A model generated the notes under the pieces. The model did not search any database. It had not been told where the DNA came from and worked only from the letters and a program-made list of their open reading frames with translations. This document shows, one piece after another, positions 1-34,142 of a DNA stretch of 34,142 nt (position 1 is its first letter; every line of letters begins with the position of its first letter). The position numbers and the translations under genes were made by a program. This DNA is from a bacterium. GTDB taxonomy: Bacteria; BMS3Abin14. The DNA lies in assembly GCA_029210545.1 (NCBI GenBank), contig JARGFV010000016.1, forward strand, positions 1 through 34,142, read 5' to 3'.

Positions 1-2
1 AC

Positions 3-82
3 AAATCAATGACTTACGGTGCGGGTCATTGATTTGGGCACCCCGCGCGGGGTGCGTTGATGGACTTTTTGCGAGTCCATCA
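3..82. repeat. Hairpin-chain repeat, copy A
   Basis: Three inverted repeats lie end to end. The first has arms AAATCAATGAC at 3-13 and GTCATTGATTT at 25-35. The second is a perfect 18-bp palindrome at 38-55 (GCACCCC arm). The third has TGATGGACT at 58-66 and AGTCCATCA at 74-82. The same modules recur at 5567, 21008 and 24562. An open frame runs through this copy into the first gene, but the peptide it would encode comes from the repeat and is not taken as coding. Confidence 0.9.
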
Positions 83-134: not shown

Positions 135-485
135 GTGAAATCCGGAAGAACAACGCTGGATCTAAAGGAAAGCGAACTCCTCGACGAGGTCCACAAGACC
201 GAAAAGGAGATCGACATCTATCTCAAGGATCGGGCCAGGCAAGCCGAAGCCATCCTTGATGATGCCCAGGCAAAAGCTGAAACGGAGCAGAAGCGCATCG
301 ACCGGGAGGTAGAGGGACAGTTCGAGGAGAAGGTCCAGCTGCTGGTCGAGGAGGCGAAGCGGAAGGCTGAAACGATCCTGGAGGAGGGGGCCAGCCTGGC
401 CGAAAGTGAACAAGGCGGGTTGGAAGGGCGCAGGGACAAGGTCGTGGAGAAGATCCTGGAGCTGGTACTGGAGAAAATACCATGA
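135..485 (+). CDS. ntpF: V/A-type ATPase peripheral-stalk subunit (H/G-like, NtpF)
   Basis: A 116-residue, highly charged protein that is almost entirely predicted coiled coil (Lys/Glu/Ala-rich heptads, no membrane segment). This is the expected form of the peripheral-stalk subunit that pairs with subunit E and links the A3B3 head to subunit I. I chose the GTG at 135 because AGGGAG at 123-128 sits six bases upstream and because the longer frame from 57 starts inside a repeat. The stop overlaps the subunit I start (ATGA). First position before subunit I matches ntpF of Enterococcus. The sequence is low-complexity, so the identification rests largely on position. Confidence 0.8.
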   Translation: MKSGRTTLDLKESELLDEVHKTEKEIDIYLKDRARQAEAILDDAQAKAETEQKRIDREVEGQFEEKVQLLVEEAKRKAETILEEGASLAESEQGGLEGRRDKVVEKILELVLEKIP

Positions 486-2374
486 TCACGCCCATGGTCA
501 AGATCACCTTCATGGGCCCGAAGCGGCACCTCATGGGGATCCTTGACCTCGTCCACTCTATGGGCGTCGTGCATCTGGAGCCGTTTCCCATCCCGTATCA
601 GCGCCTCGAGTACATTCACTTCCCGTCGGAGGACGAGAGCCAGGGCCGTTTCAGGCGCCAGATGCAGGGGCTGCTCGAGGAGGTGGAGCGTCTCCTGGTT
701 TCCCTGAAACCGCCCCATAAACTCTCCAAAGCCCCCTCCTGGCTTTTTGGTCACCACATCTCCCGACAGGACCTGGAAAGCTGCATCCACCAGGCTGCCG
801 CCGACATCACCCCTGTTTACACGAGGCTCATCGAGCTGCAGGACGAACTGACCATGCTCCAGAGGTACGAGAGGGTCCTTGCAGCTCTCTATCCCCTGCT
901 GGAAGACGCCACCGAGATCGAGAACCTGGAACTCATGGGTATCATCCTCGAAAGAAAGCGGATCGGCATCCTGCCCCTCCTGGAAAAAGAGCTTGGCAGG
1001 ATCACCTCCGGGCGTTTCCGGATCTTTACGCGCCCCATGGACAAGGATAACGTGGCCGCTATCCTCGCCTACCCGAAGGAGCGGGAAAAGACGGTCCGCA
1101 CCCTCTTTTCCGAGGAAAGCATCGCGGAGATCCGCCTCCCGATCGGGTACGAGGACAAACCGCTGGCGACAACGCTGAGGCTTCTCATACGTCACCAGAG
1201 GGAACTTCCCGAGGAGATCGACGAGCTGGCCGGCCGGATCGACCTGCTTTCCTCCCGCTGGTACGGCACCCTTTCCCGCATCAGGGAGGTGTTAAGGGAA
1301 CGGCTCGACGAGTTCCAGTCCCTGGCCCTGAGCGCCAGAAGCCGACACACCTTCTTTTTGCGGGGCTGGCTGCCCGAAGACAAGGTGGAAATGATGCTCG
1401 GGGTGGTCAAGAGCAACTTCGGTGACGATGTCATGGTGGAGGCGATCCCCGCCCGTTTTCACGAACACGATCGGGTTCCTGTCCAACTTCAAAACGCCCC
1501 CTTTGTGCGCGTGTTTGAACCACTGATCCATCTTCTGGCCCTGCCAAAGTACGGCAGCATAGATCCGACCCCTTTCATTGCCTTTTTCTTTCCCCTCTTC
1601 TTCGGATTTATCCTGGGGGATATCGCCTACGGTCTTTTGCTTCTGGGCCTGTCGGCGTGGTGCTTCAAAAGGTTCGGTGACCGGCCCCTTGTAAGGAGCC
1701 TCAGCGCGGTGTTCATGCTCAGCGGTATCTCCGCGGCCGTTTTCGGCCTCCTTTTCGGAGAGTTTCTGGGGGACCTCGGAGAACACTGGGGCCTGCACCC
1801 GCTGCTCATGGACCGGTCCCATCTGATCATGCCCCTCCTGTTTATTTCCATCGGCCTCGGTTGCGGCCACATCATACTTGGGTTTGCCCTCAACATGATC
1901 ACCTCCATCCGGCAGCGGCAGGTCAAGCACTGGGTGGCCGCCCTGGCCAACATCATCTCCCTTGCCGGGCTCATCGTCATCATCATCTCGGCATCCGGCT
2001 ACTTGCCGATGGGCGATCATATCGGTATCTTTCTCCTGGTACCGGGGATCGGGCTTCTCATCTTCAGCGAGGGACTCATGGGGCCGCTGGAACTTCTGAA
2101 AATCTTCGGGAACGTGCTCTCCTACGCCCGCCTGATGGCCATCGGGGTGGCTTCGGTGGTCCTCGCCCAGGTCGCCAACATGATCGGTCGGACCAGCGAA
2201 TCCCTCGCCGTGGGGATCGTGATGGCCCTCATCTTCCACACCCTCAACTTCGTCCTGGGCGTGTTCTCACCGACCATTCACTCTCTCCGGCTCCATTATG
2301 TGGAGTTCTTCAGCAAGTTCTACCAGCCGGGCGGCAAGCCCTATAGACCGTTCAGGAGACACCGCACCCTATGA
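482..2374 (+). CDS. ntpI: V/A-type ATPase membrane stator subunit I (a-subunit)
   Basis: A 630-residue subunit I, the static half of the ion channel facing the K ring. Residues 1-340 form the soluble, partly coiled-coil arm. Residues about 365-600 hold the membrane domain, starting at the FFFPLFFGFILGD motif (368-380). The essential arginine is Arg550 in the NVLSYARLMAIG stretch (544-555), and the conserved SPTIHSLRLHYVEFF block is at 596-610. The length is normal for the family (600-700). The start overlaps the previous stop, and the stop overlaps the next ATG. It works with the K ring to couple ion flow to rotation. Confidence 0.97.
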   Translation: MITPMVKITFMGPKRHLMGILDLVHSMGVVHLEPFPIPYQRLEYIHFPSEDESQGRFRRQMQGLLEEVERLLVSLKPPHKLSKAPSWLFGHHISRQDLESCIHQAAADITPVYTRLIELQDELTMLQRYERVLAALYPLLEDATEIENLELMGIILERKRIGILPLLEKELGRITSGRFRIFTRPMDKDNVAAILAYPKEREKTVRTLFSEESIAEIRLPIGYEDKPLATTLRLLIRHQRELPEEIDELAGRIDLLSSRWYGTLSRIREVLRERLDEFQSLALSARSRHTFFLRGWLPEDKVEMMLGVVKSNFGDDVMVEAIPARFHEHDRVPVQLQNAPFVRVFEPLIHLLALPKYGSIDPTPFIAFFFPLFFGFILGDIAYGLLLLGLSAWCFKRFGDRPLVRSLSAVFMLSGISAAVFGLLFGEFLGDLGEHWGLHPLLMDRSHLIMPLLFISIGLGCGHIILGFALNMITSIRQRQVKHWVAALANIISLAGLIVIIISASGYLPMGDHIGIFLLVPGIGLLIFSEGLMGPLELLKIFGNVLSYARLMAIGVASVVLAQVANMIGRTSESLAVGIVMALIFHTLNFVLGVFSPTIHSLRLHYVEFFSKFYQPGGKPYRPFRRHRTL

Positions 2375-4566
2375 CGAGACAGATAACCGAAGCGCTCTTC
2401 CTGGAACTGGGGGAACTTCTCAACTCCAACCTCGACGAGGTCACGATCCTGCGCACCTTCTGCAACAAGGTCCTGGCCCTGTTTGACGCGGAGAGAGTTT
2501 CCATCCTGGCGCTGAATCCGCAAGGTCAGCACCTGACCCTCATCGCCTGGGCAGGGCGGTATCCGGAGGACATGGCCGGTGTCAAGGTCACCGTTGGAGA
2601 AGGTGTGTCGGGGTGGGTTGCGGCCACGGGGGAAGCGCTCCTCGTACCCGACGTCAACCAGGATCCCCGGTTCTCGGGCCATGACAAGGACCGGTACAGG
2701 ACAGGTTCTTTCCTGAGCGTCCCCCTCAAGAGCCGGGGACGGCTGCTCGGAGTCATGAACGTCACCGACACGACCATGAACGAAGGTTTCACAGAGCCGA
2801 ACCTTCGCACCCTTAAATCCCTCGCATTGCAGGTGGGGATGGGGATGGAGAACCTCCAGCACCGGAGCGTCATCAACTCCAACTACGATGCGACGACAGC
2901 CCTGGTCTCGGCGCTCCAGGATCTTCAGTCCCAGGCCGCCGATATCGAGTCCGGACTGGTCCCGGCCGCAGTCAAAACCCTGAACGTCACCCTGGGAGCC
3001 CACTCCCACATGATCCTCATCGGTGACATGACCAGTAACAGGGCCTGGGTCGGCAGCCTCGGAACGGAGGGGGGCATCAATATGTCCGTAATGGACTACC
3101 GGTCCGGATACTCCCTTTATCAGGCCCTGGCCTCTCTCTCCCTCCATCCGCCCTACAAGGAGAACGACCGCCTGGTCGAGTTCGGGTTCGCCTGGAACGA
3201 GGTCATTGACTCGGACCTGCGCCTCTTGCGCAGTCTCCTGCCGCCCAGACACGACCAGTTCGGCCTTTCCCTTTCGGCCATCCCGGACACCAACCCGGAC
3301 GCGCTGGAGACGTTCCGGTTCCACCAGTCGGTGATCACCCAGTTCGTGGGTCTTCTCCTGGAGGGGATCTTCAACAGGATCCAGATCAAACGCCTCGATC
3401 ACCTCAAGACCGAGCTGATCTCAACTGTGTCCCACGAACTTAGAACGCCGCTGACCTCCATCCAGGGGTTCTCCGAGCTCCTGCTCCGGAGCAGGGATAT
3501 CCCTGAAGGGAGTCAACGCTACCTCAACATCATCAACAACGAAAGCATGAGACTCAACCGGCTCATCAACAACTTCCTTGACCTCGCCCGCCTCGAGTCG
3601 GGGCAACTCAGCCTCACCAAGGAGCCTTTCGACCCTCTGGAGGTCGTAGAGCACGCCGTCAAGCTCCTGAAACCCCAGGCTGAAAGCGGCAAAGCGATGG
3701 TTCGGCTGCACTGCGACCGGAACCTCCACCAACTCATCGCCGACCAGGACAGAGTGGAACAGGCCCTGGTCAACCTTATCGGCAACGCCATCAAGTACGG
3801 AGGGAACGGGGTCTGCATCGACATCAATCTCAACGCTTCCGACGGGTACACCATCTTCGAGGTCTCCGACAACGGGCCCGGGATTCCCGAGGAGGAGATT
3901 TCCCTGGTTTTCAACCGCTTTTACCGGGGTATGCTCGACACCCAGACCGACGAGGGCAAGGAGGTTAAAGGAACAGGCCTCGGCCTCTCCCTGACCAGGG
4001 AGATCGTCGAGCAGCACGGCGGAACCATATCCGTCCAGAGCCGGCCCGGCGAGAGCACCTCCTTCCGATTCTCTTTGCCCAGCCTGGGGCTTATCAGCCC
4101 ACAGAGGGGGATAACAGCGTGGCATCCCGGGGACGAAAAGTTTTCCAGCGAACTGGCCAACCGCATCGCGGAGGGCAAGGCGGTGGGTGTCCTCACCCTT
4201 CATGTGAACCCCGGCTCCGGGGGTAATGAAGAGGAAGCCTACTCGGTGGAGGCCCTCAGCGACATCGAGGAACTCATTGTGGGAACGCTCAACGGCAGGG
4301 GGGTTGGAGATGACCTCATCCAGAGCAGGCCCCAGGGGGAGTTTGTCATCCTCACCTACTCCTCCCTGGTTGACCAGTGCGCTGACGACCTTATCGCCTC
4401 CTTCAAAAAACGTTTCGGGGACGGTTACGACATTGCCATCGGGGCGGCCATCGCCTCCCAGAGTGACAAACCCAAGCCCGAAAAGCTCATGGCCCTGTCA
4501 CGGCAGGCCTGTCAATATGTGGAGAGAACCCAGAAGAAAGGGTACCTGAAAAACAGGAGGATGTGA
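2371..4566 (+). CDS. Soluble GAF sensor histidine kinase with degenerate GGDEF-like C-terminus
   Basis: A 731-residue protein without membrane segments. Residues 20-165 resemble a GAF domain, and 170-335 look like a second, diverged sensory region. The HisKA H-box is at 351-366 with His355 (VSHELRTPLTS). The ATPase domain has the N-box with Asn472 and the glycine motifs DNGPGIP (500-506) and GTGLGLSL (534-541). Residues 590-728 have the layout of a GGDEF domain: GEFVIL at 656-661 where GGDEF would be, IAIGAAIA near 688, then a C-terminal helix ending in QKKGYL. The catalytic GG(D/E)EF is missing, so it is probably a sensor or partner domain. An ATGA overlap couples it to subunit I inside the ATPase operon, and no response regulator is adjacent. 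The kinase call is firm; the GGDEF relic is inferred from pattern. Confidence 0.93.
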   Translation: MTRQITEALFLELGELLNSNLDEVTILRTFCNKVLALFDAERVSILALNPQGQHLTLIAWAGRYPEDMAGVKVTVGEGVSGWVAATGEALLVPDVNQDPRFSGHDKDRYRTGSFLSVPLKSRGRLLGVMNVTDTTMNEGFTEPNLRTLKSLALQVGMGMENLQHRSVINSNYDATTALVSALQDLQSQAADIESGLVPAAVKTLNVTLGAHSHMILIGDMTSNRAWVGSLGTEGGINMSVMDYRSGYSLYQALASLSLHPPYKENDRLVEFGFAWNEVIDSDLRLLRSLLPPRHDQFGLSLSAIPDTNPDALETFRFHQSVITQFVGLLLEGIFNRIQIKRLDHLKTELISTVSHELRTPLTSIQGFSELLLRSRDIPEGSQRYLNIINNESMRLNRLINNFLDLARLESGQLSLTKEPFDPLEVVEHAVKLLKPQAESGKAMVRLHCDRNLHQLIADQDRVEQALVNLIGNAIKYGGNGVCIDINLNASDGYTIFEVSDNGPGIPEEEISLVFNRFYRGMLDTQTDEGKEVKGTGLGLSLTREIVEQHGGTISVQSRPGESTSFRFSLPSLGLISPQRGITAWHPGDEKFSSELANRIAEGKAVGVLTLHVNPGSGGNEEEAYSVEALSDIEELIVGTLNGRGVGDDLIQSRPQGEFVILTYSSLVDQCADDLIASFKKRFGDGYDIAIGAAIASQSDKPKPEKLMALSRQACQYVERTQKKGYLKNRRM

Positions 4567-4572
4567 GGATCT

Positions 4573-4669
4573 ATGTCTCAGATCTCATATCTCAAAAAAG
4601 TGCGTCGAGTCGCTGCAACCTCGCGCAAATCATAGTTTGAGATCTGAAATCTGAAATCTGAAATCTGAA
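4573..4669. repeat. 7-bp-phased repeats between kinase and subunit K
   Basis: Three loose heptads ending in CTC (atgtctc, agatctc, atatctc) occupy 4573-4593. Four perfect tandem copies of ATCTGAA follow at 4642-4669. They lie in the 125-bp gap before the proteolipid gene. They are members of the window-wide heptad pattern. Confidence 0.9.
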
Positions 4670-4691
4670 ATTCGCACTGAAAGGGGGCACC

Positions 4692-4913
4692 ATGTCAGAA
4701 AACATTCTCATCGCCTTCGCAGCGGCGCTCGCCATCGGGCTCCCTGCCCTTGCCACTGGATGGGCACAGTCCCGCATCGGCTCTGCCGGGGCCGGAGCCC
4801 TGGCAGAAAAACCCGAGATCAGCGGAACCATCATCATTCTGCTGGCCATCCCGGAAACCATGGTGATCCTGGGTTTCGTCATCGCCTTCCTTATCCTGGT
4901 GATGCTCAAGTGA
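4692..4913 (+). CDS. ntpK: V/A-type ATPase proteolipid subunit K (c-subunit)
   Basis: A 73-residue single hairpin of two membrane helices (about 5-32 and 45-72) joined by a polar loop around Glu39-Lys40-Pro41. It forms the rotating ring. The ion-binding carboxylate is Glu55 in IPETMVILGFV (53-63), typical of archaeal-type c subunits. Gln26 lies 15 residues before Pro41, the same offset as the Na+-ligand Gln32 before Pro47 in Ilyobacter subunit c, and Thr56 follows the glutamate. These features are compatible with Na+ specificity but do not prove it. Enterococcus NtpK is a doubled four-helix form; this one is undoubled. A purine-rich GGGGG stretch precedes the ATG. Confidence 0.95.
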   Translation: MSENILIAFAAALAIGLPALATGWAQSRIGSAGAGALAEKPEISGTIIILLAIPETMVILGFVIAFLILVMLK

Positions 4914-5569
4914 ACGACAGGTCCCGGGACACGTCGGGTTCTGACCGGCTTTTGGAAAGTTTGTGGCAGGACGCGAAACGGGAGGCCGCGCAGAATCTTT
5001 CCAGGGCCACGGCCCAGGCTGCGAAACTCCTCGCCGACATCCAGGCCTACCGTGACCGAGAGGTTGCCAGGGCCCACGAAAGGGCTCTGGAGAAGGCTGC
5101 CCCGGAGATCGCACGGATCCTCAACAGGGCCCGCGGAGCTGTCGAGAAAAGGACCCTCGATGAAACGTACCGCTTCCTTGATGAATGTCTTGCCCGCGCC
5201 CGGATTTTACTGAACGGGAGTGAGGATATATCCGGGGCCGCTCGCGCCGCCTTTGAGCCACTCTTCAGGCAGGCGGCCGTTCATTTCGAAAGCGAACAGG
5301 AGGTTCGGATCGTCATTGCGCCGGCCGACCTGGAGATCGCCCGGCGCCTCGTATCCGAGGCGGGGTTCGAGTGCACGATCGCCGAGGAACCAGGCATCCT
5401 GGGCGGCGCCAGGATCGAGGCAGCGAACGGCTCTCGCCTGGTGGACAACACCATCGCCGGCCGCCTCGCTGTCCTGGGGGAGTACCCGCCTGTGGAGGTT
5501 CTGGGATCGATGTTACCGGGGATCCGATCTATCCCCGACCCGGATGCTGTCGGGGAGGTCAAAGGTTGA
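4910..5569 (+). CDS. ntpE: V/A-type ATPase peripheral-stalk subunit E
   Basis: A 219-residue subunit E. Residues about 12-85 form a charged helical N-terminal half that pairs with the NtpF/H coiled coil. Residues about 100-205 form the mixed C-terminal domain that binds the top of subunit B, including the GGARIEAANGSRLVDNTI block typical of E subunits. The start is the GTG at 4910, which overlaps the K stop (GTGA). The frame is open further upstream but there overlaps all of K. The stop codon lies inside the first hairpin of the E-C spacer repeat, so the last codons border repeat DNA. Confidence 0.93.
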   Translation: MNDRSRDTSGSDRLLESLWQDAKREAAQNLSRATAQAAKLLADIQAYRDREVARAHERALEKAAPEIARILNRARGAVEKRTLDETYRFLDECLARARILLNGSEDISGAARAAFEPLFRQAAVHFESEQEVRIVIAPADLEIARRLVSEAGFECTIAEEPGILGGARIEAANGSRLVDNTIAGRLAVLGEYPPVEVLGSMLPGIRSIPDPDAVGEVKG

Positions 5570-5838
5570 TGGACTCGCAAAAAGTCCATCAACGCGCCCC
5601 GCGCGGGGCGCCCAAATCAATGACCGGCAAAAACAGCCGCACCTGGGAGAGGCGCCCGGATCGAGTGCCAATGGCTGTGTGTTCGATCCGTGAGGGAACC
5701 GAAAACCACGCTTTTCGGTTCCCGTTGAGCCAAAGTCTTACCCGGACTTTGGCGATATTACAGCAGTCTCCGTAAGGAAAGGGAAAACGACGCTTTTCCC
5801 TTTCCGTGGAGCGAAAAGTCCCGCCTGGACTTTTTGCG
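5567..5838. repeat. Seven-hairpin chain inside the ATPase operon, copy B
   Basis: The 307-bp spacer between subunits E and C is almost entirely inverted repeats. They lie at 5567-5591 (TGATGGACT arms), 5594-5611 (GCGCCCC palindrome), 5658-5689 (GGATCGA arms), 5694-5723 (GGGAACCGAAAA arms, 6-nt loop), 5730-5752 (CCAAAGTC arms), 5776-5805 (GGAAAGGGAAAA arms, 6-nt loop) and 5814-5834 (AAAAGTCC arms). None is followed by a clear T-run, so termination is not obvious. I see no gene in this spacer. The order is the reverse complement of copy A. Confidence 0.93.
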
Positions 5839-5876
5839 AAGTTGACAAACATGAGGTGACCTGGGGGGATCCTGAA

Positions 5877-6920
5877 GTGACCTGCGAGATCGAATACCTG
5901 AACGCCCATATCAGGGGGGGTGCAGGACGTCTCCTGCCGGAGGAAAGCGTCGCGGCCCTGTTCGGGGCGACGACCAGGGCATCCTGGACTGCCGCGCTCA
6001 GGGACACACCTTACAGCATCCACCTTGGACCGGTCGCCGGGGACCAGGACAGCCGCTTGTTCTTCCGTGCCGTGGACCAATCCATAGCTCACCGCACACA
6101 CCGCCTCGGGCATCTGGTCAACGGCCGCCCGGGCCTGGCCCTTTCCGTATGCCTTTCCGAATGGGACCTTTCGAACCTGCTGGGCATCGTCAGCGGTATC
6201 TGCAACAGCGCCCAACCTGCCCAGATAATCCCCGCGACCGTTGCCGGCGGGCTCCTGGGGCCCGATCAGATGGAAACCCTCTCCCACTGCAGGACTCTCC
6301 CGCAGGCCGCTGACTTCCTCAGGTTGTGGCGGTTCCCCAAACAGGCCCTCGTTCATGAGGTCTTTTTCGGGTTCCAGGACATGTCCCTGCCGCAGATCCG
6401 TCTGGAACTGTCCAGACGATGGCACGGGCAACTGCTGAAAGATGCCAGGCAGGCAGGCTTTCGGGCCCTCATCCGTCTCATGTCCGAACGGATCGATCAG
6501 ATCAACATCATGACAGCCCTTATGTGGAGGGTCCTTCCCTCTGACCGGGACCCCGTGGAGTTCTTCCTCGAAGGCGGCAGTGCAGTGGATCTTCGAACCT
6601 TTCGAAAAGCCCTCGCGGCCCCGGACATCCTGGAGGCCATCTCGGCCCTGACGGCTGGACGTCTGCGCAGCGTGCTCCAGGCCGCGGCGGTCATCGGTCC
6701 GGATGGTGAAGAGCGGATCTCAGCTCTTCACCAGGCCCTCGAAAACGAGCTGACTCACCGGTACAGCCGGCCGCTGGTCAGGGACCCTCTGGGCATAGAA
6801 CTCATGATCAGCTTCCTGCTGCGGCTGCGCCGCGAGGGGATCAGGATCAAACTTTCCCTGACCCGCCTCATATACGACATACCCAGGGACATTTTCCTGG
6901 AGATGACCGGCTATGTCTGA
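5877..6920 (+). CDS. ntpC: V/A-type ATPase subunit C (d-type, rotor-ring adaptor)
   Basis: A 347-residue, mainly helical protein without membrane segments, the expected size of the funnel-shaped C/d subunit that seats the central stalk on the K ring. The family is diverged and I see no catalytic motif. The call rests on length, the N-terminal pattern EYLNAHIRGG with the helical repeats that follow, and position between E and F. I prefer the GTG at 5877, preceded by a G-run at 5863-5868, over the in-frame GTG at 5856, whose only purine stretch abuts the codon. The stop overlaps the subunit F start by 8 bp. The hairpin-rich spacer upstream could give this distal half of the operon its own expression level. 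Confidence 0.88.
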   Translation: MTCEIEYLNAHIRGGAGRLLPEESVAALFGATTRASWTAALRDTPYSIHLGPVAGDQDSRLFFRAVDQSIAHRTHRLGHLVNGRPGLALSVCLSEWDLSNLLGIVSGICNSAQPAQIIPATVAGGLLGPDQMETLSHCRTLPQAADFLRLWRFPKQALVHEVFFGFQDMSLPQIRLELSRRWHGQLLKDARQAGFRALIRLMSERIDQINIMTALMWRVLPSDRDPVEFFLEGGSAVDLRTFRKALAAPDILEAISALTAGRLRSVLQAAAVIGPDGEERISALHQALENELTHRYSRPLVRDPLGIELMISFLLRLRREGIRIKLSLTRLIYDIPRDIFLEMTGYV

Positions 6921-7242
6921 AGTCCTGGTGGTAGGACAGCCGGAGATCGTTGAGGGGTTCGGCCTGACCGGGGCCCGGTTCGAAGCCGTGACCGACCCTG
7001 ACCGCGTCGAGTGGCTGGTGACCGAACTCATGCGCAACCGCGACACGGGGATCGTTATTATCACCGAAGACCTTTACAATCAGATCCCGGAGAAGTTGCG
7101 GGTCAAGGCCGAAGCCAGCGCCCGCCCACTGTTCATCACTCTCCCCCGCCCTGTCGGTCGGGAACTTTGGGACGAAAGGGAGGATCTCATTTCGAGGATC
7201 ATCCGCCGGGCTATCGGGTACCGGTTGAAGATCAGGAGATGA
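6913..7242 (+). CDS. ntpG: V/A-type ATPase central-stalk subunit F
   Basis: A 109-residue alpha/beta protein of the subunit F family (NtpG in Enterococcus naming). The N-terminus (VLVVGQPEIVEGFGLTG) and the GIVIITEDLYNQIP stretch (about 46-59) are typical of this Rossmann-like subunit, which binds subunit D and modulates hydrolysis in the central stalk. The ATG at 6913 overlaps the C stop by 8 bp, showing tight coupling. The length is normal (about 100). Confidence 0.93.
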   Translation: MSEVLVVGQPEIVEGFGLTGARFEAVTDPDRVEWLVTELMRNRDTGIVIITEDLYNQIPEKLRVKAEASARPLFITLPRPVGRELWDEREDLISRIIRRAIGYRLKIRR

Positions 7243-7251
7243 TACAGATAT

Positions 7252-7300
7252 CAGTAACCAGTAGGCAGTAGTCTGACCTCTGGCTACTGACCTCTGGCTA
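7252..7300. repeat. Seven consecutive 7-bp units between subunits F and A
   Basis: Seven heptads run in unbroken 7-bp phase: cagtaac, cagtagg, cagtagt, ctgacct, ctggcta, ctgacct, ctggcta. The second half is a 14-bp unit repeated twice. They fill the only gap between F and A and stop just before the subunit A ribosome site (7306-7312). Confidence 0.92.
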
Positions 7301-7320
7301 CTTGAAGAAAGGTGTCTTCC

Positions 7321-9129
7321 ATGGCTGAGGGAGGGACAATCTACCGCATCTCCGGGTCCACCGTCGAGGCGGCGGGGCTCCTATGCGCCAGGATGTACGA
7401 CGTGACGCGAGTTGGCGGCCCCGGAATCATGGGAGAGGTCATCCGCATCCACCACGACCTGACCACCATCCAGGTCTACGAGGACACGTCGGGCCTGTCG
7501 GTGGGCGAACCGGTGATCTGCGCGGGCCACCCTCTCACAGTGGAACTGGGACCGGGCCTTCTCGGACAGGTTTTCGACGGGATCCAGAGGCCGCTCCTCT
7601 CACTGAAAGAGGTTGAGGGAGATTTCATCCTGCGGGGTACCGACGTCCGTTCCCTGGACACGGAGCGGGAATGGGAGTTCACCGCCGTGGTGAGCGAGGG
7701 GCAGGAGGTCACCGGGGGAGACGTTCTTGGTACCGTGCCCGAGGGCGGCCGCATCGTTCACCGGATCATGGTGCCGCCGGACGTGGCGGGCCGGGTCCGG
7801 GAAGCGCGTTCGGGAACCTTCCGGGTGGACGACACGGTGGTCCGCCTGGACACAGGTTCCGATGGCATGCTGGATCTGTCCCTTGTACAGCGCTGGCCGG
7901 TACGAATCCCCCGACCGTGCGTCACCAAGATCGCACCCGACCGTCCCTTCCTCACGGGGCAGAGGGTTCTCGACACCCTTTTCCCCATCGCCCTTGGCGG
8001 AACCGCCATCGTCCCGGGCGGGTTCGGAACGGGTAAAACCGTCGTTGAGCAGACCCTCGCCAAGCACGCTGACGCGGACGTGATCATCTATATCGGATGC
8101 GGCGAGCGGGGCAACGAGATGACCGAAGTCCTCACGGAGTTCCCCAAGCTTGAGGACCCCCAGACGGGCCGTTCCCTCATGGAGAGGACGGTCCTCGTGG
8201 TCAACACCTCCAACATGCCCGTGGCGGCAAGGGAGGCGTCCATATACACCGGGATCACCATGGCCGAATACTTCCGGGACATGGGTTACCACGTGGCTCT
8301 CATGGCCGATTCCACCTCCCGATGGGCCGAGGCGCTGCGTGAGATATCCAGCCGCCTCGAAGAGATGCCCGGCGAGGAGGGTTACCCGACCTACATGGGG
8401 ACGCGGCTGGCCGGTTTTTACGAAAGGGCCGGGCACGTCCGGACCCTTGGTTCCGATGAGCACACAGGCTCGGTGACCATTGTCAGTGCCGTCTCCCCCC
8501 CCGGAGGTGACTTTTCGGAGCCTGTCACACAAGGGTCCATGAGGATCGCCGGCGGGCTCTGGGCTCTCGATACGTCCCTGGCCCATCGCCGCCACTACCC
8601 TGCCATAAGCTGGACCCGCAGCTACAGCCTTTACGGGGAGACGCTGGCGCCGTGGTTCGCAAGGGAAACCTTCGAGGACTGGGCAGTCCAGAAACAGCGG
8701 CTCAACCGCATGCTGGAAAGAGAAAAGGAGATCCAGGAGATGGTCCAGCTGGTGGGAGAGGACGCCATCCCGGACAACGAGAGGGTCCTCCTCCTCGGCG
8801 CCAGGCTCATCCGTGAGAACTTCCTCCGCCAGAACGCATACCACCCGGTGGACGCATCGTGCTCCCTGATGAAGCAGTACTGGATGCTCAAGGCTTTCCT
8901 GGACGGGTATGAGACAATCCTTTCGGCCCTGGGGACCGAGATCCCCCTGGAAAAGCTCCTGGAGCTGACCACCATCGTTGATCTTGCCCGGCTCAACGAG
9001 CAGCCCGACGAGAAGTTCCCTGAAGCATCCCACCTCATCCTGAAAAAGCTGAAGGCGGAGATCGAGGAACTGGCCGGAGAGATGTCCAGGCAAAGGGAGA
9101 AGTTCGAACAGGAGGAGAAACGTGGATGA
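7321..9129 (+). CDS. ntpA: V/A-type ATPase catalytic subunit A
   Basis: A 602-residue catalytic subunit that hydrolyses or makes ATP at the A/B interfaces. It shows the N-terminal barrel (about 5-70), the A-specific bulge domain (about 110-190), the P-loop GGFGTGKT at 233-240 with Lys239, the catalytic glutamate region GERG at 261-264 (Glu262), the [20 protein letters not shown] block from 333, and [13 protein letters not shown] at 392-404. I chose ATG 7321 because AGAAAGG at 7306-7312 gives good spacing; a GTG nine bases earlier overlaps that site. The stop overlaps the start of B. Confidence 0.98.
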
Positions 9130-10558
9130 GCTGATGACAAGGAAAGGTCGGGGACTTGTCGGCATATCAGGACCGCTGGTGAGCATGCCCGCCGACCCGG
9201 GTACATTCCTCGGGCAGATGTTGGAACTGACCACCGGCAGCGGACTCAGGCGCCAGGGGCAGGTGCTGGAGATCTCCAGGGAGAAGACGACGGCCCAGCT
9301 TTTCGAGACGACCCAGGGGATCGACACGGCCTCCACCTGGGTCCGTTACCTGCCAAGGACCGCCAGGATAAGGCTTTCGAGACGTATGCTGGGCAGGAGG
9401 TTCTCCGGCAGCGGCGCTCCTCTTGACGGAATGCCGCCCCCCGTACCCGAGATCGAGACCGAGATCACCGGCAGCCCCATCAATCCCATGGCCAGGGACA
9501 AACCGTCCGATTTCATCCAGACCGGTATTTCGTCCATCGACCTGCTCAATACCCTCGTCAGGGGCCAGAAACTGCCCATCTTCTCCGGTTCGGGACTGCC
9601 GTCCAACGAACTGGCTGTGCAGATCGTCCGGCAGGCCTCGGTGGTAGGCGAGGAGAGCGATTTCGCCATCGTCTTCGCCGCCATGGGCATCACCCACCGG
9701 GACGCTTCCTTCTTCGTGGACGCCTTCGAATCCACGGGGGCCATGAACCGCACCGTCGTGTTCCTGAACCTGGCTTCCGACCCCACCATCGAGCGGCTGT
9801 TGACACCACGAATGGCCCTTTCCACGGCCGAGCACCTGGCTTTCGAGCATGGCCTCCACGTCCTGGTGGTCCTCACAGACATGGCCAACTACTGCGAGGC
9901 GCTCAGGGAGATCGGCAACGCCCGGGAGGAGATCCCTGGACGACGGGGATACCCCGGGTACATGTATACGGACCTGGCCATGATCTACGAGAGAGCGGGC
10001 CGGATCAGGGGAAGAGCGGGCTCCGTGACACAGATCCCCATCCTCTCCATGCCCGACGACGACATCACGCACCCCATCGCCGATCTCACCGGGTACATCA
10101 CGGAAGGACAGATCGTCCTGTCCCGCGAACTTCACCGCAAGGGGATCTTTCCTCCCATCGATGTTCTCCCCAGCCTGTCCAGGCTCATGAACCTGGGGAT
10201 CGGTGAGGGGAAGACGAGGGGCGATCACAGGAACCTGGCCGACCAGATCTACGCTTTCTATGCCAGGGGGCGGGACCTGAGGCGCATGGAGGCCGTGGTG
10301 GGAGAGGACGCCATGACCAGCGAAGACCGAAGATACCTCGCCTTTTCCAAGCGGTTCGAGGAAATTTTCCTCCACCAGGGCAATAAAGACAGGAGCATAG
10401 ACCAATCGCTCACGGGGGCATGGGACCTTTTCGCCGGTTTTCCTGAAGCCGAACTGACGCGCATTGACCGCCGCTGGATCCAGGAGTATTTTCCCGGGAA
10501 CGGCCGGGATCGGGATGGAGCGCCCCAAACGGAGGTGGACGGAGGTGCCGTGCCGTGA
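9122..10558 (+). CDS. ntpB: V/A-type ATPase regulatory subunit B
   Basis: A 478-residue non-catalytic subunit alternating with A in the head. It has no P-loop; the equivalent place reads [17 protein letters not shown] (about 156-172), as expected for [20 protein letters not shown] (from about 278) is the conserved B signature. The GTG start at 9122 has GGAGG at 9111-9115. It overlaps the end of A by 8 bp, and its stop overlaps the GTG of D. Confidence 0.98.
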
Positions 10559-11190
10559 GCGTTCCGGCCACCCGGATCAACCTCCTGGCCAGCAGGGATC
10601 GAATGGCCCTGGCCATAGCCGGGGCCGACCTGCTGAAAAGCAAGAGGGAGGCGCTCATCAGCGATTTTTTCCGGATCGTGGACACCATCGTGCACAGCAG
10701 GGAGGAGATGGCGAGGGAGGTCCAGAGGGCCATGACCCAGGCCGGGATCGCCAAATCCTTCGCCGGGAGCCAGAGCCTGACCGCCGCGGCCCTTTCAGCG
10801 AAGAGGAATATCCCCATCAAGACCCGCGAGATCAACATCTGGGGCATCCACATTCCCGAGATCCATTTTGTTTCCCTCCGCAGGACCCCTGAAGCCCGGG
10901 GGATGCTTCCCATCGACACGTCTCCCCACATTCTCGAGACAGCCGAGTCCTACGAAAAACTCCTGGACCGGTTGCTGAGGACCGCCAGCCAGGAGATCCG
11001 CCTCAAGAGACTGGGTGAGGAGATCCGCAAGGTGAGCCGCAGGATCAACGCGCTGGAACAGAGCCTCATCCCCTCCCTTTCCGGCCAGATCCATCAGATG
11101 CTCAGCACCCTCCAGGAACGGGAGAGGGAGGACCTTTTCCGCCTCAAGCACATCAAGAAGAGCAAAAGGACAAAAGAGATTGGCCGGTAA
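10555..11190 (+). CDS. ntpD: V/A-type ATPase central-stalk subunit D
   Basis: A 211-residue rotor shaft. It starts with the family pattern [26 protein letters not shown]-type helix (about residues 5-30) and ends in a second long helix (about 125-210), the antiparallel coiled coil that turns inside the A3B3 head. The GTG at 10555 forms a GTGA overlap with the B stop, with GGAGG at 10541-10545. The following antiporter gene starts inside its last codons. Confidence 0.95.
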
Positions 11191-12406
11191 CGAGATCATC
11201 GCCCTGGGGATCCTGCTCATGGCGGGGTTCGCGGGGGGCAAGGCGAGTTATGCCGCCCGGCTGCCCAGCGTCACCGGCTATATCCTGGCAGGGCTTCTCC
11301 TCGGCCCGTCCCTCCTGGACATCATCACTCCGGAGACCATCGAGAAGCTGGAGTTCATCAACTCCCTGGCCCTTTCTCTCATCGCCATCTCCGTGGGGGG
11401 GAAACTTGACCTGGCCGAGCTTTCGGGCGGATTTGGAACGATCCTGTCCGTGAGCCTCATGCAGACCCTTTTCGTTGGTGCCGGGACCTTCGCGGCACTC
11501 GTGGTGTCCGGCGTCAGCCCGGCCCTTGCCCTTCTCCTCGCCGCCACAGCGCTCGCAACGGCGCCGGCGGCCGTCATGGCGGTGGTGGAGGAAACCCGGG
11601 CACAGGGCCCTTTTACCAACACCCTCCTCGCGGTGGTCGCTCTTTCGAACGTGCTTGCCGTCATGGTGTTCGGCTTTGCCATGGCAGCGGTTCCCTTCGT
11701 GGAACTTGACACCGGTTTTTCCCTTGCCCTGACGCGGGCCCCCATGGCCAGCCTCGGGGGAAGCCTTCTCCTGGGTGCGGGTATCGGCCTTATCCTTTCC
11801 CGGGTGGCCCCCATGGCGCGCAACCGCCAGGAGATCCTCATAATCATCCTCGGGACCGCTTTTTTGAGCAGCGAGCTGGCCAGGATAGGGTTGAAGTACT
11901 CCCCTCTCCTCATCAACATCACCATCGGGTTCGTCCTGGTGAACCTCTGTCCCCTGAAAGACCGCCTGTTCGAGGCCATCGGGAGCGTCGAGCTACCCAT
12001 CTACATCACCTTCTTCAGCCTCCAGGGGGCCCACCTCGATATCAGGGTGCTCGGCGGGTTGGGGCTTGTGGGTGTGACCTACATCCTGAGCAGGATGGCC
12101 GCCAAGGTGATGGGGGCGTGGCTGGGGGCTGCCGTGACCGGTGCGGCCGGACCCATGAGAAGGTTCCTGGGACCTGCCCTGTTCCCCCAGGCGGGCATCG
12201 CCATCGGCATGTGCGTTGCCGTGAGCAACACGCCTTCATGCAGCGCCTATGCCCCGACCGTTACCACCGTCGTCCTCGCCGCGGTGCTGATCAACGAACT
12301 CATCGGTCCTGTCGCCGTTAACATTTCGCTGAACAGGGTCGGTGAGGCCCGCCCGCGGGTCGTGCGCAAAACCGCCAAACGAAATACTGGAGACGAGAAG
12401 CGATGA
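11180..12406 (+). CDS. Cation:proton antiporter family protein (CPA2-like), first of a pair
   Basis: A 408-residue membrane protein with about 12-13 helices in the Na+/H+ exchanger fold. LPSVTGYILAGLLLGPS (28-44) is typical for the first helices. The unwound helix 4 pattern is TALATAPAAV (123-132). Where exchangers carry the ion-binding DD or ND pair on helix 5, this protein has Ser156-Asn157 (VVALSNVLAV), so it lacks the usual carboxylates. The TTG start at 11180 overlaps the subunit D end by 11 bp and has AAGGA upstream. It is probably cotranscribed with the ATPase and with the paralogue that follows. It could be a non-transporting partner subunit or use other ligands. Confidence 0.87.
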   Translation: MAGNEIIALGILLMAGFAGGKASYAARLPSVTGYILAGLLLGPSLLDIITPETIEKLEFINSLALSLIAISVGGKLDLAELSGGFGTILSVSLMQTLFVGAGTFAALVVSGVSPALALLLAATALATAPAAVMAVVEETRAQGPFTNTLLAVVALSNVLAVMVFGFAMAAVPFVELDTGFSLALTRAPMASLGGSLLLGAGIGLILSRVAPMARNRQEILIIILGTAFLSSELARIGLKYSPLLINITIGFVLVNLCPLKDRLFEAIGSVELPIYITFFSLQGAHLDIRVLGGLGLVGVTYILSRMAAKVMGAWLGAAVTGAAGPMRRFLGPALFPQAGIAIGMCVAVSNTPSCSAYAPTVTTVVLAAVLINELIGPVAVNISLNRVGEARPRVVRKTAKRNTGDEKR

Positions 12407-13509
12407 ATTTCCTCACCATCGGATGCCTGGTGCTGGGATATCTCCTGGGGGAGAGCGGCCTGGGACTCTTTAACGTCTACACCATCGGGCACCTGAAACC
12501 GTTCATTGCCTTTGCCCTCGGCTGGGTGGGGTTCATCATCGGTGAGAACCTGGAGTTCAGCACCGTGCGCAGGATGTCGGCACAGCTATTGATCCTCTCA
12601 CTGGGACAGTTGACGGCCGCCTTCGTGCTCACAGGCTGGGCGCTCTGGTGGTTCCTGTCCGGCCCCGCCGGATGGCCTGCCGGGACGGCCCTGGTCTTCA
12701 GCCTGCTGGCAGCCTGTACCGCCACAGCCACCGACCCGATCACCGCGGCGGCTCTCATGGACAGGGGCAGGAGAGCAGCCGGCCTTTCCCACCTGCTCAT
12801 GCAGCTGGCCACCATCGCGGACGTTTTAACCACCCTCCTGTTCTGGCTGGTCCTGTCATTTTCGGTGAACCACATCGGCAGCGGCGTTCCGGGCGGTTTC
12901 GGGTTCACGGTCGAGGCCCTGCTCCACCCGGCTCTCGGGCTGGCACTCGGGTTGGCCCTGTCCCTCCTCATAACACCTGAAAGGGACCAGAGGGAGGTGA
13001 CTCTCCTCTTCATGGCGGCCTTGTTCATCGCCGTTGGCGCCGGGATGGCCATCAGGGTCTCACCTCTCATCGTGTGCATGTTTGCCTCGGCCTTCGTCAT
13101 GAGCGTGAAAAGGGGCAAGACCGTTATCCGGGAGGTCGTCCACCAGCTGGAAATGCCTGTCTACGTCACCTTCCTCATCATGTGCGGTGCCCTTTTCAAA
13201 CCCCCTCTCCTTGTCGATCTCTTCTGGCCACTTCTCATCTACGTGGCCCTCAGAGCGGTGGGAAAAACGGGAGGGATCTTTATCACGGCAAAAGCGATGC
13301 ACCTTGAACCCGGGGCCCCCCGGCTGGGGTTAGGCCTGCTCAGCCAGGCCGGCCTCGCCGTGGTGCTGGCGGTCAACATCTACTTCGAAGTGGATGCGGC
13401 CCTCGGGCTGAACCTGATAGCCCTGACCACGGCGGGAATCGTCGTCAACCAGCTGCTGGGGATCGAGGGGATGAAGCTGTTAAAATCAACATTTGAGGAA
13501 GAAGAATAG
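12403..13509 (+). CDS. Cation:proton antiporter family protein, second of a pair
   Basis: A 368-residue membrane protein with about 11-12 helices, paralogous in fold to the previous gene and coupled to it by ATGA. Unlike its partner it keeps ion-site features: TATATDPITAA (106-116) with the Asp111-Pro112 seen in CPA1-type helix 4, and Ala139-Asp140 on the next conserved helix (LATIADVLTTL). In position it replaces ntpJ, the cation transporter that closes the Enterococcus ntp operon, which suggests recycling of the ion moved by the ATPase. Substrate and direction cannot be read from the sequence. Confidence 0.87.
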   Translation: MNFLTIGCLVLGYLLGESGLGLFNVYTIGHLKPFIAFALGWVGFIIGENLEFSTVRRMSAQLLILSLGQLTAAFVLTGWALWWFLSGPAGWPAGTALVFSLLAACTATATDPITAAALMDRGRRAAGLSHLLMQLATIADVLTTLLFWLVLSFSVNHIGSGVPGGFGFTVEALLHPALGLALGLALSLLITPERDQREVTLLFMAALFIAVGAGMAIRVSPLIVCMFASAFVMSVKRGKTVIREVVHQLEMPVYVTFLIMCGALFKPPLLVDLFWPLLIYVALRAVGKTGGIFITAKAMHLEPGAPRLGLGLLSQAGLAVVLAVNIYFEVDAALGLNLIALTTAGIVVNQLLGIEGMKLLKSTFEEEE

Positions 13510-15750: not shown

Positions 15751-15779
15751 CTTTTCCTCCTTTTGATAGGGTCGCAGGA

Positions 15780-16035
15780 AGTCCTGGTGGGACTACCTGC
15801 TCCACGGAAAGGGAAAAGTGTCATTTTCCCTTTCCTTACGGGACTACTGATAGCGAGAAAAAGTCCATGCGGGACTTTTTCTCCACGGGAAGCGAAAAGC
15901 GCAGTTTTCGCTTCCCTCACGGATCGAAGACTCCCCAAGTCTTCAATCCGGGCGCCTTTCCCAGGCGCGGTTACTCATCACACGATTTCCGGTCATCGAT
16001 CCGGGCGCCCTTCCCGGGCGCGGCTGTTCATTGAT
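15780..16035. repeat. Hairpin-chain repeat upstream of the octahaem cytochrome, copy C
   Basis: Successive inverted repeats lie at 15806-15835 (GGAAAGGGAAAA arms), 15855-15883 (GAGAAAAAGTCC arms), 15887-15916 (GGGAAGCGAAAA arms) and 15926-15944 (GAAGACT arms). Two direct copies of a GGGCGCC/GGCGC(G) module follow at about 15947-15970 and 16000-16023. No gene lies in the 471 bp between the octahaem gene and its upstream neighbour. The leader of the cytochrome mRNA must cross this chain. Confidence 0.9.
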
Positions 16036-16221
16036 CTGGCTGCCATCCCCGGGCGCTCCGCCAGAGTTGTTGGGCGTCTATCAAGTCTCATCCGTTTTTT
16101 CCGTTTTCCGGTCAAACAGGGCCGATCCACCCCCTCTCGGCCAGCTTTTCTTTTTAACGTTGAAATTAAAGTATAGCTGTATTCCTGACATGTGCAGGAG
16201 ATGCTAAGTAAATTGAACGGC

Positions 16222-20942: not shown

Positions 20943-21007
20943 ATGCGCTCCCAGGAAATGTGTGAAACCGCTTTGATACCTTGGCCTTGAATTCCGGGTA
21001 TTAAAGA

Positions 21008-21090
21008 TGTTGGCTTCGCAAAAAGTCATCAACGCGCCCCGCGCGGGGCGCCCAAATCAATGACAAGCCGCGCCTGGACTTTTTGCGACC
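21008..21090. repeat. Hairpin-chain repeat upstream of the porin operon, copy D
   Basis: It carries the TTCGCAAAAAGTCATCAA module, the GCGCCCC palindrome at 21034-21051, a partial AAATCAATGAC arm and a closing GGACTTTTTGCGA arm. It lies 66 bp upstream of the porin start. The 21100-21420 stretch beyond it is AT-rich and I see no gene there. Confidence 0.88.
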
Positions 21091-21439
21091 CTGTCAAAGA
21101 TGATCAGCTTCCATTTCTCCTTTAAAAGGAATATTCCCCGGATATCCCATAAACGTCTTCCGGATGGATCAGATTTTCCATTTTGCGCAGGATCGGGCAC
21201 AGGGAATCATCACCGTAACAACATGTAGAATTATGGATTGGATCAGGATACAAACGGTTGCCCCCCGGCAGGAATCCTTACCAAGAACGAGAAGGATAAA
21301 GCCCCCAAAGCTTGTTTCATAAGTGTAACATACGTTTAAATTCACGCAACTTTTTTTAAATAAAGTCGGCAATTTCAGGTGGATTATCCGGATATTGCAT
21401 ATCTGGTAGCTGGGTTACTCCGTGGGTAAGTCAGACACG

Positions 21440-24526: not shown

Positions 24527-24561
24527 CTGACTATCCTTTTTGTCGGGCTTTGATTCAAGAT

Positions 24562-24718
24562 TGATAGAGTCGCAAAAAGTCCAATCCGGGACTTTTCGCT
24601 CCACGGAAAGGGGAAAGCGTGGTTTCCCCTTTCCTCACAGATCAATGACTTACAGTGCAAGTCATTGATCTGGGCGCCCCGCGCGGGGCGCGTTGATGAC
24701 TTTTTGCGAAGTCATCAA
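24562..24718. repeat. Hairpin-chain repeat, complete five-module copy E
   Basis: In order: AAAAGTCC/GGACTTTT (24575-24596), GGAAAGGGGAAA/TTTCCCCTTTCC (24605-24634), AGATCAATGACTT/AAGTCATTGATCT (24639-24671), the GCGCCCC palindrome (24674-24691), and TTGATGACTT/AAGTCATCAA (24693-24718). It is the most regular copy. The start sequence gatagagtcgcaaaaagtcc is shared with copy F at the window end. Confidence 0.93.
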
Positions 24719-24736
24719 GATTCAAGATTCAAAGAG
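24716..24736. repeat. Three 7-bp units abutting copy E
   Basis: caagatt, caagatt, caaagag directly continue the last arm of the hairpin chain. Confidence 0.75.
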
Positions 24737-34020: not shown

Positions 34021-34069
34021 CGGGTTTTGGGTTTTGCGTTTCGGGTTTCAACCTCAAGCATCAAACTTG
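34021..34069. repeat. Seven 7-bp units before copy F
   Basis: cgggttt, tgggttt, tgcgttt, cgggttt, caacctc, aagcatc, aaacttg in unbroken phase. More irregular units lie at 33968-34020. The block runs straight into the hairpin-chain repeat. Confidence 0.9.
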
Positions 34070-34142
34070 ATAGAGTCGCAAAAAGTCCAATCCGGGACTT
34101 TTCGCTCCACGGAAAGGGAAAAGCGTCGTTTTCCCTTTCCTT
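34070..34142. repeat. Hairpin-chain repeat at the window end, copy F (cut off)
   Basis: An AAAAGTCC/GGACTTTT hairpin (34081-34102) and GGAAAGGGAAAA/TTTTCCCTTTCC arms at 34111-34122 and 34129-34140. It is nearly identical to the start of copy E and continues past the window. Confidence 0.9.

Follow-up and report, generated by a model that had tools for sequence, protein, structure and literature searches.

A modular hairpin-chain MITE family sharing its ends with an IS1182-like insertion sequence in a BMS3Abin14 bacterium

Closest described systems and the copies in the window

BOX elements of Streptococcus pneumoniae are modular stem-loop arrays with a variable number of modules; we know of no link between BOX and an IS1182-like transposase group. 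The repeat described here is also a modular stem-loop array, but its sequence differs from that of BOX and it has a 46-bp form made of ends only. BOX elements have been mentioned alongside the Correia repeats of Neisseria and the ERIC repeats of Enterobacteriaceae, whose transcripts fold and for which RNase III- or RNase E-dependent effects on adjacent transcripts are reported (PMC10969869). Like Correia and ERIC, the present repeat is a high-copy intergenic MITE; unlike them, it has other ends and another host group. Abundant intergenic hairpins are shared with the REP/BIME elements associated with RAYT, whereas the terminal inverted repeats (TIRs), the 6-bp duplications and the matching ends of a DDE insertion sequence set the present repeat apart. 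MITEs derived from IS1182 are known as well, for example the ISMac2-related elements of 160 and 169 bp in Methanosarcina acetivorans (PMC3852290, Table 4). These resemble our repeat in the broad transposase family, the size of about 160 bp, the long TIRs and the multicopy state, but are flanked by direct repeats of 4 or 0 bp (PMC3852290, Table 4) instead of 6 bp with the consensus AANNTT. No earlier description was recovered in the paper collection searched by the core TIR sequence, the papers retrieved all being unrelated as judged from title and abstract. The MITE family is thus apparently undescribed so far, folding MITEs and IS1182-derived MITEs themselves being already known.

The compact element measured 154-155 bp and consisted of five hairpins: H1 (the left TIR folded on itself), H2 (the GCGCCCC palindrome), H3 (12-bp stem with a hypervariable 11-nt loop), H4 (12-bp purine/pyrimidine stem) and H5 (which includes the right TIR core). 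The window, the whole 34,142-nt stretch analysed, is contig C16 of a 2.72-Mb genome in 241 contigs. It held six copies of one repeat sharing a hairpin chain, as the sequence-only reading had claimed. The stems listed there at 5694, 5776, 15806, 15887, 24605 and 34111 were exact, with 6-nt loops and fully matching arms; all six are of the H4 type and sit in four elements, and the remaining two elements (1-82 and 21009-21095) have no H4. The copy at 1-82 (minus strand), truncated by the contig start, retained the left TIR, H1, H2 and H3. Its H2 read GCACCCC/GGGGTGC (about position 38) instead of GCGCCCC/GGGGCGC, so that the central-palindrome change and the matching change in the partner arm were both real.

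The copy previously placed at 5567-5838 proved to be a real repeat with slightly different borders, extending from 5568 to 5846 on the plus strand. Besides the left TIR (GATGGACTCGCAAAAAGTC), this long 279-bp element contained additional hairpin modules, two H4 hairpins, and H5, which includes the right TIR. H1 (GATGGACT / AGTCCATC) was recognised at 5568-5590 from the sequence, and H2 (GCGCCCC-GCGC-GGGGCGC) at 5594-5611 from both sequence and covariation; the first H4 (GGGAACCGAAAA-CCACGC-TTTTCGGTTCCC) occupied 5694-5723, the second (GGAAAGGGAAAA-CGACGC-TTTTCCCTTTCC) 5776-5805, and H5 with the right TIR core (GCGAAAAGTCC ... GGACTTTTTGCG) 5812-5838, all on the plus strand. An intact target duplication was absent at the flanks of this copy (AAAGGTT / AAACATG). 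A degenerate long copy at about 15765-16082 (minus strand) carried H4 at 15806 and 15887 and a decayed left TIR. An 87-bp deletion derivative without H4 (21009-21095, plus strand) was flanked by the exact 6-bp duplication AAAGAT (21003-21008 and 21096-21101), and the canonical compact element of 154 bp with five hairpins (24563-24716, minus strand) by AATCTT (24557-24562 and 24717-24722). The last copy (34069-34142, minus strand) was truncated by the contig end and retained H4, H5 and the right TIR. A co-directional gene run including V/A-type ATPase subunits (V_ATPase_I, vATP-synt_AC39, ATP-synt_ab) spanned 482-13509, with the AC39 subunit gene directly downstream of copy 5568-5846.

Ends, target duplications and the partner insertion sequence

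The element was bounded by TIRs of ~19 bp (GATGrmyTCGyAAAAAGTC ... GACTTTTTGCGACyCTrTC) and by target duplications of 6 bp with the consensus AANNTT. Identical flanking 6-mers were present in 80 of 173 elements; by comparison, re-pairing the flanks among these 173 elements gave a mean of 4.5 exact matches and a maximum of 12. In two elements the outer letter departed from the consensus in the same way on either side (AAGGAA and AATAAA), indicating that six bp rather than four were duplicated. The 4-bp reading (ANNT with a TIR of TGATG) was ruled out by these two cases, and no duplication length other than 6 bp fitted. The repeat was short, non-coding, multicopy and TIR-bounded (154-155-bp own-genome alignment; 323 right ends). 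The long TIRs and fixed 6-bp duplications exclude a REP/RAYT element and show that the repeat is a real MITE family, with an unusually modular, structured interior.

An IS1182-like insertion sequence whose ends are of the MITE type (GATGGACCCGCAATTAGTC ... GACGGCATCGCAAAAAGTATC, each read from the outside in) was found in the same genome (G000:C1, L237), where the gene at L237 1258-2820 encodes an IS1182-like transposase of 520 aa with DUF772 and DDE domains. In the relatives G009 and G007, the MITE TIR with an IS-specific continuation (...AAAAAGTATCATTC) lay immediately upstream (5') of the transposase, showing that it is the end of the insertion sequence itself and not of a neighbouring MITE. 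Desulfosarcina widdelii had three identical 1.9-kb copies with the ends GATGAACGCGTAAAAACTCAC / GATGGTCCTGTAAAAACTCAC and the flanking duplications ATAATT, AATTTT and AAATTT, indicating that the duplications made by this transposase group are 6 bp long and of the MITE type. An autonomous partner with the same ends was thus seen at G000:C1, in G009, in G007 and in D. widdelii, the partner inside this genome looking defective. The G000 and D. widdelii transposases were 48% identical, and the alignment to the intact D. widdelii protein reached only residue 448. Beyond it, most of the C-terminal DDE_Tnp_1_6 region was missing and an internal deletion was apparent, so the G000 transposase is probably inactive. 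An active partner copy may have been lost, may be unassembled or may reside elsewhere. Most MITE-bearing relatives had transposase fragments only or no match, and no transposase relatives were confirmed in viral contigs. The IS1182 family model NF033551 was the best match for the partner transposase, but the scores (116 and 142 bits) were below the NCBIfam cut-off of 270; the partner is therefore called IS1182-like only, and its group differs in this respect from the IS1182 family.

Since the ends are common to the MITE and the insertion sequence, we infer that the MITE is mobilised in trans by the IS1182-like transposase. The DDE transposase of a full-length element would bind the ~19-bp TIRs and direct insertion to intergenic, AT-rich AANNTT sites, with duplication of 6 bp.

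Size forms, abundance and genomic context

The smallest elements, of 46 bp, consisted of ends only, and the largest, of about 414 bp, contained duplicated modules. Besides the compact form, this genome contained elements of 46, 87, 166/167, 175 and 188/189 bp and longer ones, differing by deletion or module duplication. The larger forms would arise when hairpin modules are duplicated, and the 46-bp form through a deletion from the left TIR to the 5' arm of H5, the two being nearly identical; these routes are proposed from the forms observed. Six loci of this genome (L275, L295, L301, L313, L320 and L321) held 46-bp elements that were two fused ends and nothing more, making them candidates for very small mobile elements. 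Exact duplications flanked 8 of the 18 46-bp elements from all genomes examined, about as often as other elements, which suggests that mobility does not require the hairpin chain, although in-place deletion between near-direct repeats would look identical. Among elements longer than 215 bp, an exact duplication was kept in only 1 of 15, so that the long forms, including copy 5568-5846, may have expanded in situ or decayed. The 11-nt H3 loop (e.g., in 24563-24716, minus strand) had 3.0 changes per site in own-genome copies compared with 0.2-1.25 elsewhere; one guess is that it forms the tip of a cruciform exposed to mutation. In the H4 loop, positions 1 and 5 covaried as C-G or T-A, with 9 double changes, so that the remaining loop has 3 nt and one C is bulged.

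Allowing up to 2 mismatches, the right-end motif occurred 323 times in this genome, corresponding to about 320 copies, and the reversed control gave 0; blastn with copy 5568-5846 returned 54 matching places. A stricter 13-mer right-end pattern was found 306 times in this genome, 154 times in G003, less often in other relatives and never in G001 and G002. The repeat matched this genome and same-family genomes except G001, and 0 of 19 genomes of other families, the compared genomes of this phylum all belonging to one family. MITEs were abundant in 9 of 11 relatives (G003-G011), and the two lacking the right-end motif (G001 and G002) also lacked the transposase. Among named records, the same end motif was found mostly in Desulfobulbaceae, Desulfobacterales or Deltaproteobacteria, and also in an Acidobacteria bin and a Nitrospirae bin; the interiors behind it were usually unrelated, and a few single matches look like chance. 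A sister MITE family of 101 bp, often flanked by 6-bp duplications and having related ends (GACGGTTTCGTAAAAACCC ... GAGATTGTC), was observed in Desulfobulbaceae MAG127 (L083, L090, L091, L096, L106, L109, L110, L123, L125 and L151). No match to the repeat was found in the phages and plasmids searched.

Nearly all copies were intergenic, with 7 of 202 inside genes; genes were called with a home-made coding score, which makes these context counts approximate. In a first set, 39 downstream genes were co-oriented with the element and 14 were not. This bias was not replicated in further sets (23:18, 13:7 and 37:38), and no 5'-UTR role is therefore claimed. Contigs very often started or ended inside the repeat, as at 1-82 and 34069-34142 in the window and in many other contigs, for example C2, C13, C19, C32, C33, C41, C47 and C54, and the repeat is a main cause of assembly fragmentation. 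A MITE copy with an exact 6-bp duplication lay close to the single RAYT-like Y1 protein of the genome (L019/L050, G000:C150).

Maintenance of the fold and competing explanations

When 20 diverse copies were aligned (A2), 97.7% of the pairing cells were paired compared with 94.4% in shuffles, and 35 cells were altered on both sides where 11.5 were expected, a count reached in 0 of 500 shuffles. Register shifts of the same alignment lowered pairing to 39-53%. The tree-aware null, in which parsimony changes in 88 compact copies were re-placed on the tree (Fitch/FastTree), was beaten by three internal stems: H3 (p=0.0025, the limit), H4 (p=0.0075; its apical pair p=0.0025, also the limit) and H2 (p=0.015), with p-values bounded at 1/401 and under the assumption of tree-like copies, though copies may recombine. 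H5 gave no covariation signal in this null with the 88 copies. Stems were substituted at 0.3-0.5 of the unpaired-site rate, and likewise on the terminal branches of this genome. Covariation thus exceeded the shuffle, slide and tree-aware controls, the significance check that the sequence-only reading had proposed, indicating that the fold was kept along amplifying lineages. Our conclusion is that amplifying lineages retained the pairing, with selection at single sites uncertain.

For a selected RNA of the plus strand, G-U intermediates are expected well above A-C. The ratio of G-U to A-C was 39:20 overall and 10:2 on internal branches; terminal branches gave 29:18 in total and 5:5 for those of this genome. 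The earlier proposal that covariation means a fold maintained as RNA or single-stranded DNA consequently holds in part: the compensated changes were real and did not reflect shared ancestry only, but covariation by itself is no proof of a functional fold. The overall G-U excess was modest and vanished in own-genome copies, the gene orientation bias was not reproducible, the H4 stem was partly broken in one lineage that amplified, and template switching also yields paired changes.

We are highly confident that the repeat is best explained as a MITE, a non-coding passenger of a 6-bp-duplicating IS1182-like insertion sequence, with paired arms changing together along amplifying lineages. The most likely cause of the covariation is selection for the folded state, which would be helped by template-switch repair of imperfect palindromes; the folded state might, for example, protect or process read-through transcripts, so that intergenic insertions are tolerated. 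There is a considerable chance, though somewhat below even, that covariation arose without selection, by template switching between quasi-palindrome arms or by recombination between subfamilies, and that the fold is functionless. Template switching as a source that creates and maintains hairpins with paired changes is documented (PMC8794818). Own-genome terminal branches carried 6 double changes next to 5 G-U, 5 A-C and 4 other single changes, and several new stem states recurred on separate branches, both consistent with such a process. However, candidate spacer inversions, the template-switch signature, were limited to 2 H3-loop and 2 H2-loop pairs with none in H4 or H5, and the 33 paired double changes were spread over 26 branches, 20 of which had a single pair, with 25 of the 33 of the transition type. 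Further, stems changed 2-3 times more slowly than unpaired sites, which is unexpected from arm homogenisation alone, and the H4 apical pair (C1-G5/T1-A5) covaried across a bulged C. Template switching is still a serious contributor to the paired changes.

A functional structured RNA, be it a cis-regulator, a processing site or a small RNA, that spread as a MITE and is selected at individual sites is an unlikely reading of the hairpin chain. The five hairpins with covarying internal stems, the G-U excess on internal branches and overall, and the almost exclusively intergenic location point to such an RNA, but searching Rfam with the repeat gave no match at the gathering score or at E<=1, and the co-orientation with downstream genes seen in the first set was not reproduced. 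We consider doubtful, a shade more so, a transposon family with a modular structured-RNA cargo, in which a five-hairpin chain would be under strand-specific selection at hundreds of intergenic sites. A REP/BIME-like element moved by a RAYT (Y1) transposase, the mover that the sequence-only reading had suggested looking for, is very improbable. The hairpins are abundant and intergenic, and the genome encodes one RAYT-like (C150, L019) and one IS200-like (C27, L018) Y1 protein; no link between the RAYT-like protein and repeat mobility was found, and such an origin is refuted by the 6-bp target duplications, which like the long TIRs are foreign to Y1 mobilisation, and contradicted by ends that match a DDE insertion sequence.

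These results name an origin for a very abundant unannotated repeat that fragments the assemblies of these genomes, and link it to a transposase group (IS1182-like, 6-bp AANNTT) whose ends recur across several sulfate-reducer-type bacterial groups. If the structured-RNA cargo were true, transcripts would be processed or stabilised at the insertion sites, and modules would be duplicated and lost like domains. Hundreds of copies with co-changing arms in one genome provide a natural test bed for separating fold selection from template-switch mutation, a question shared by many hairpin repeats.
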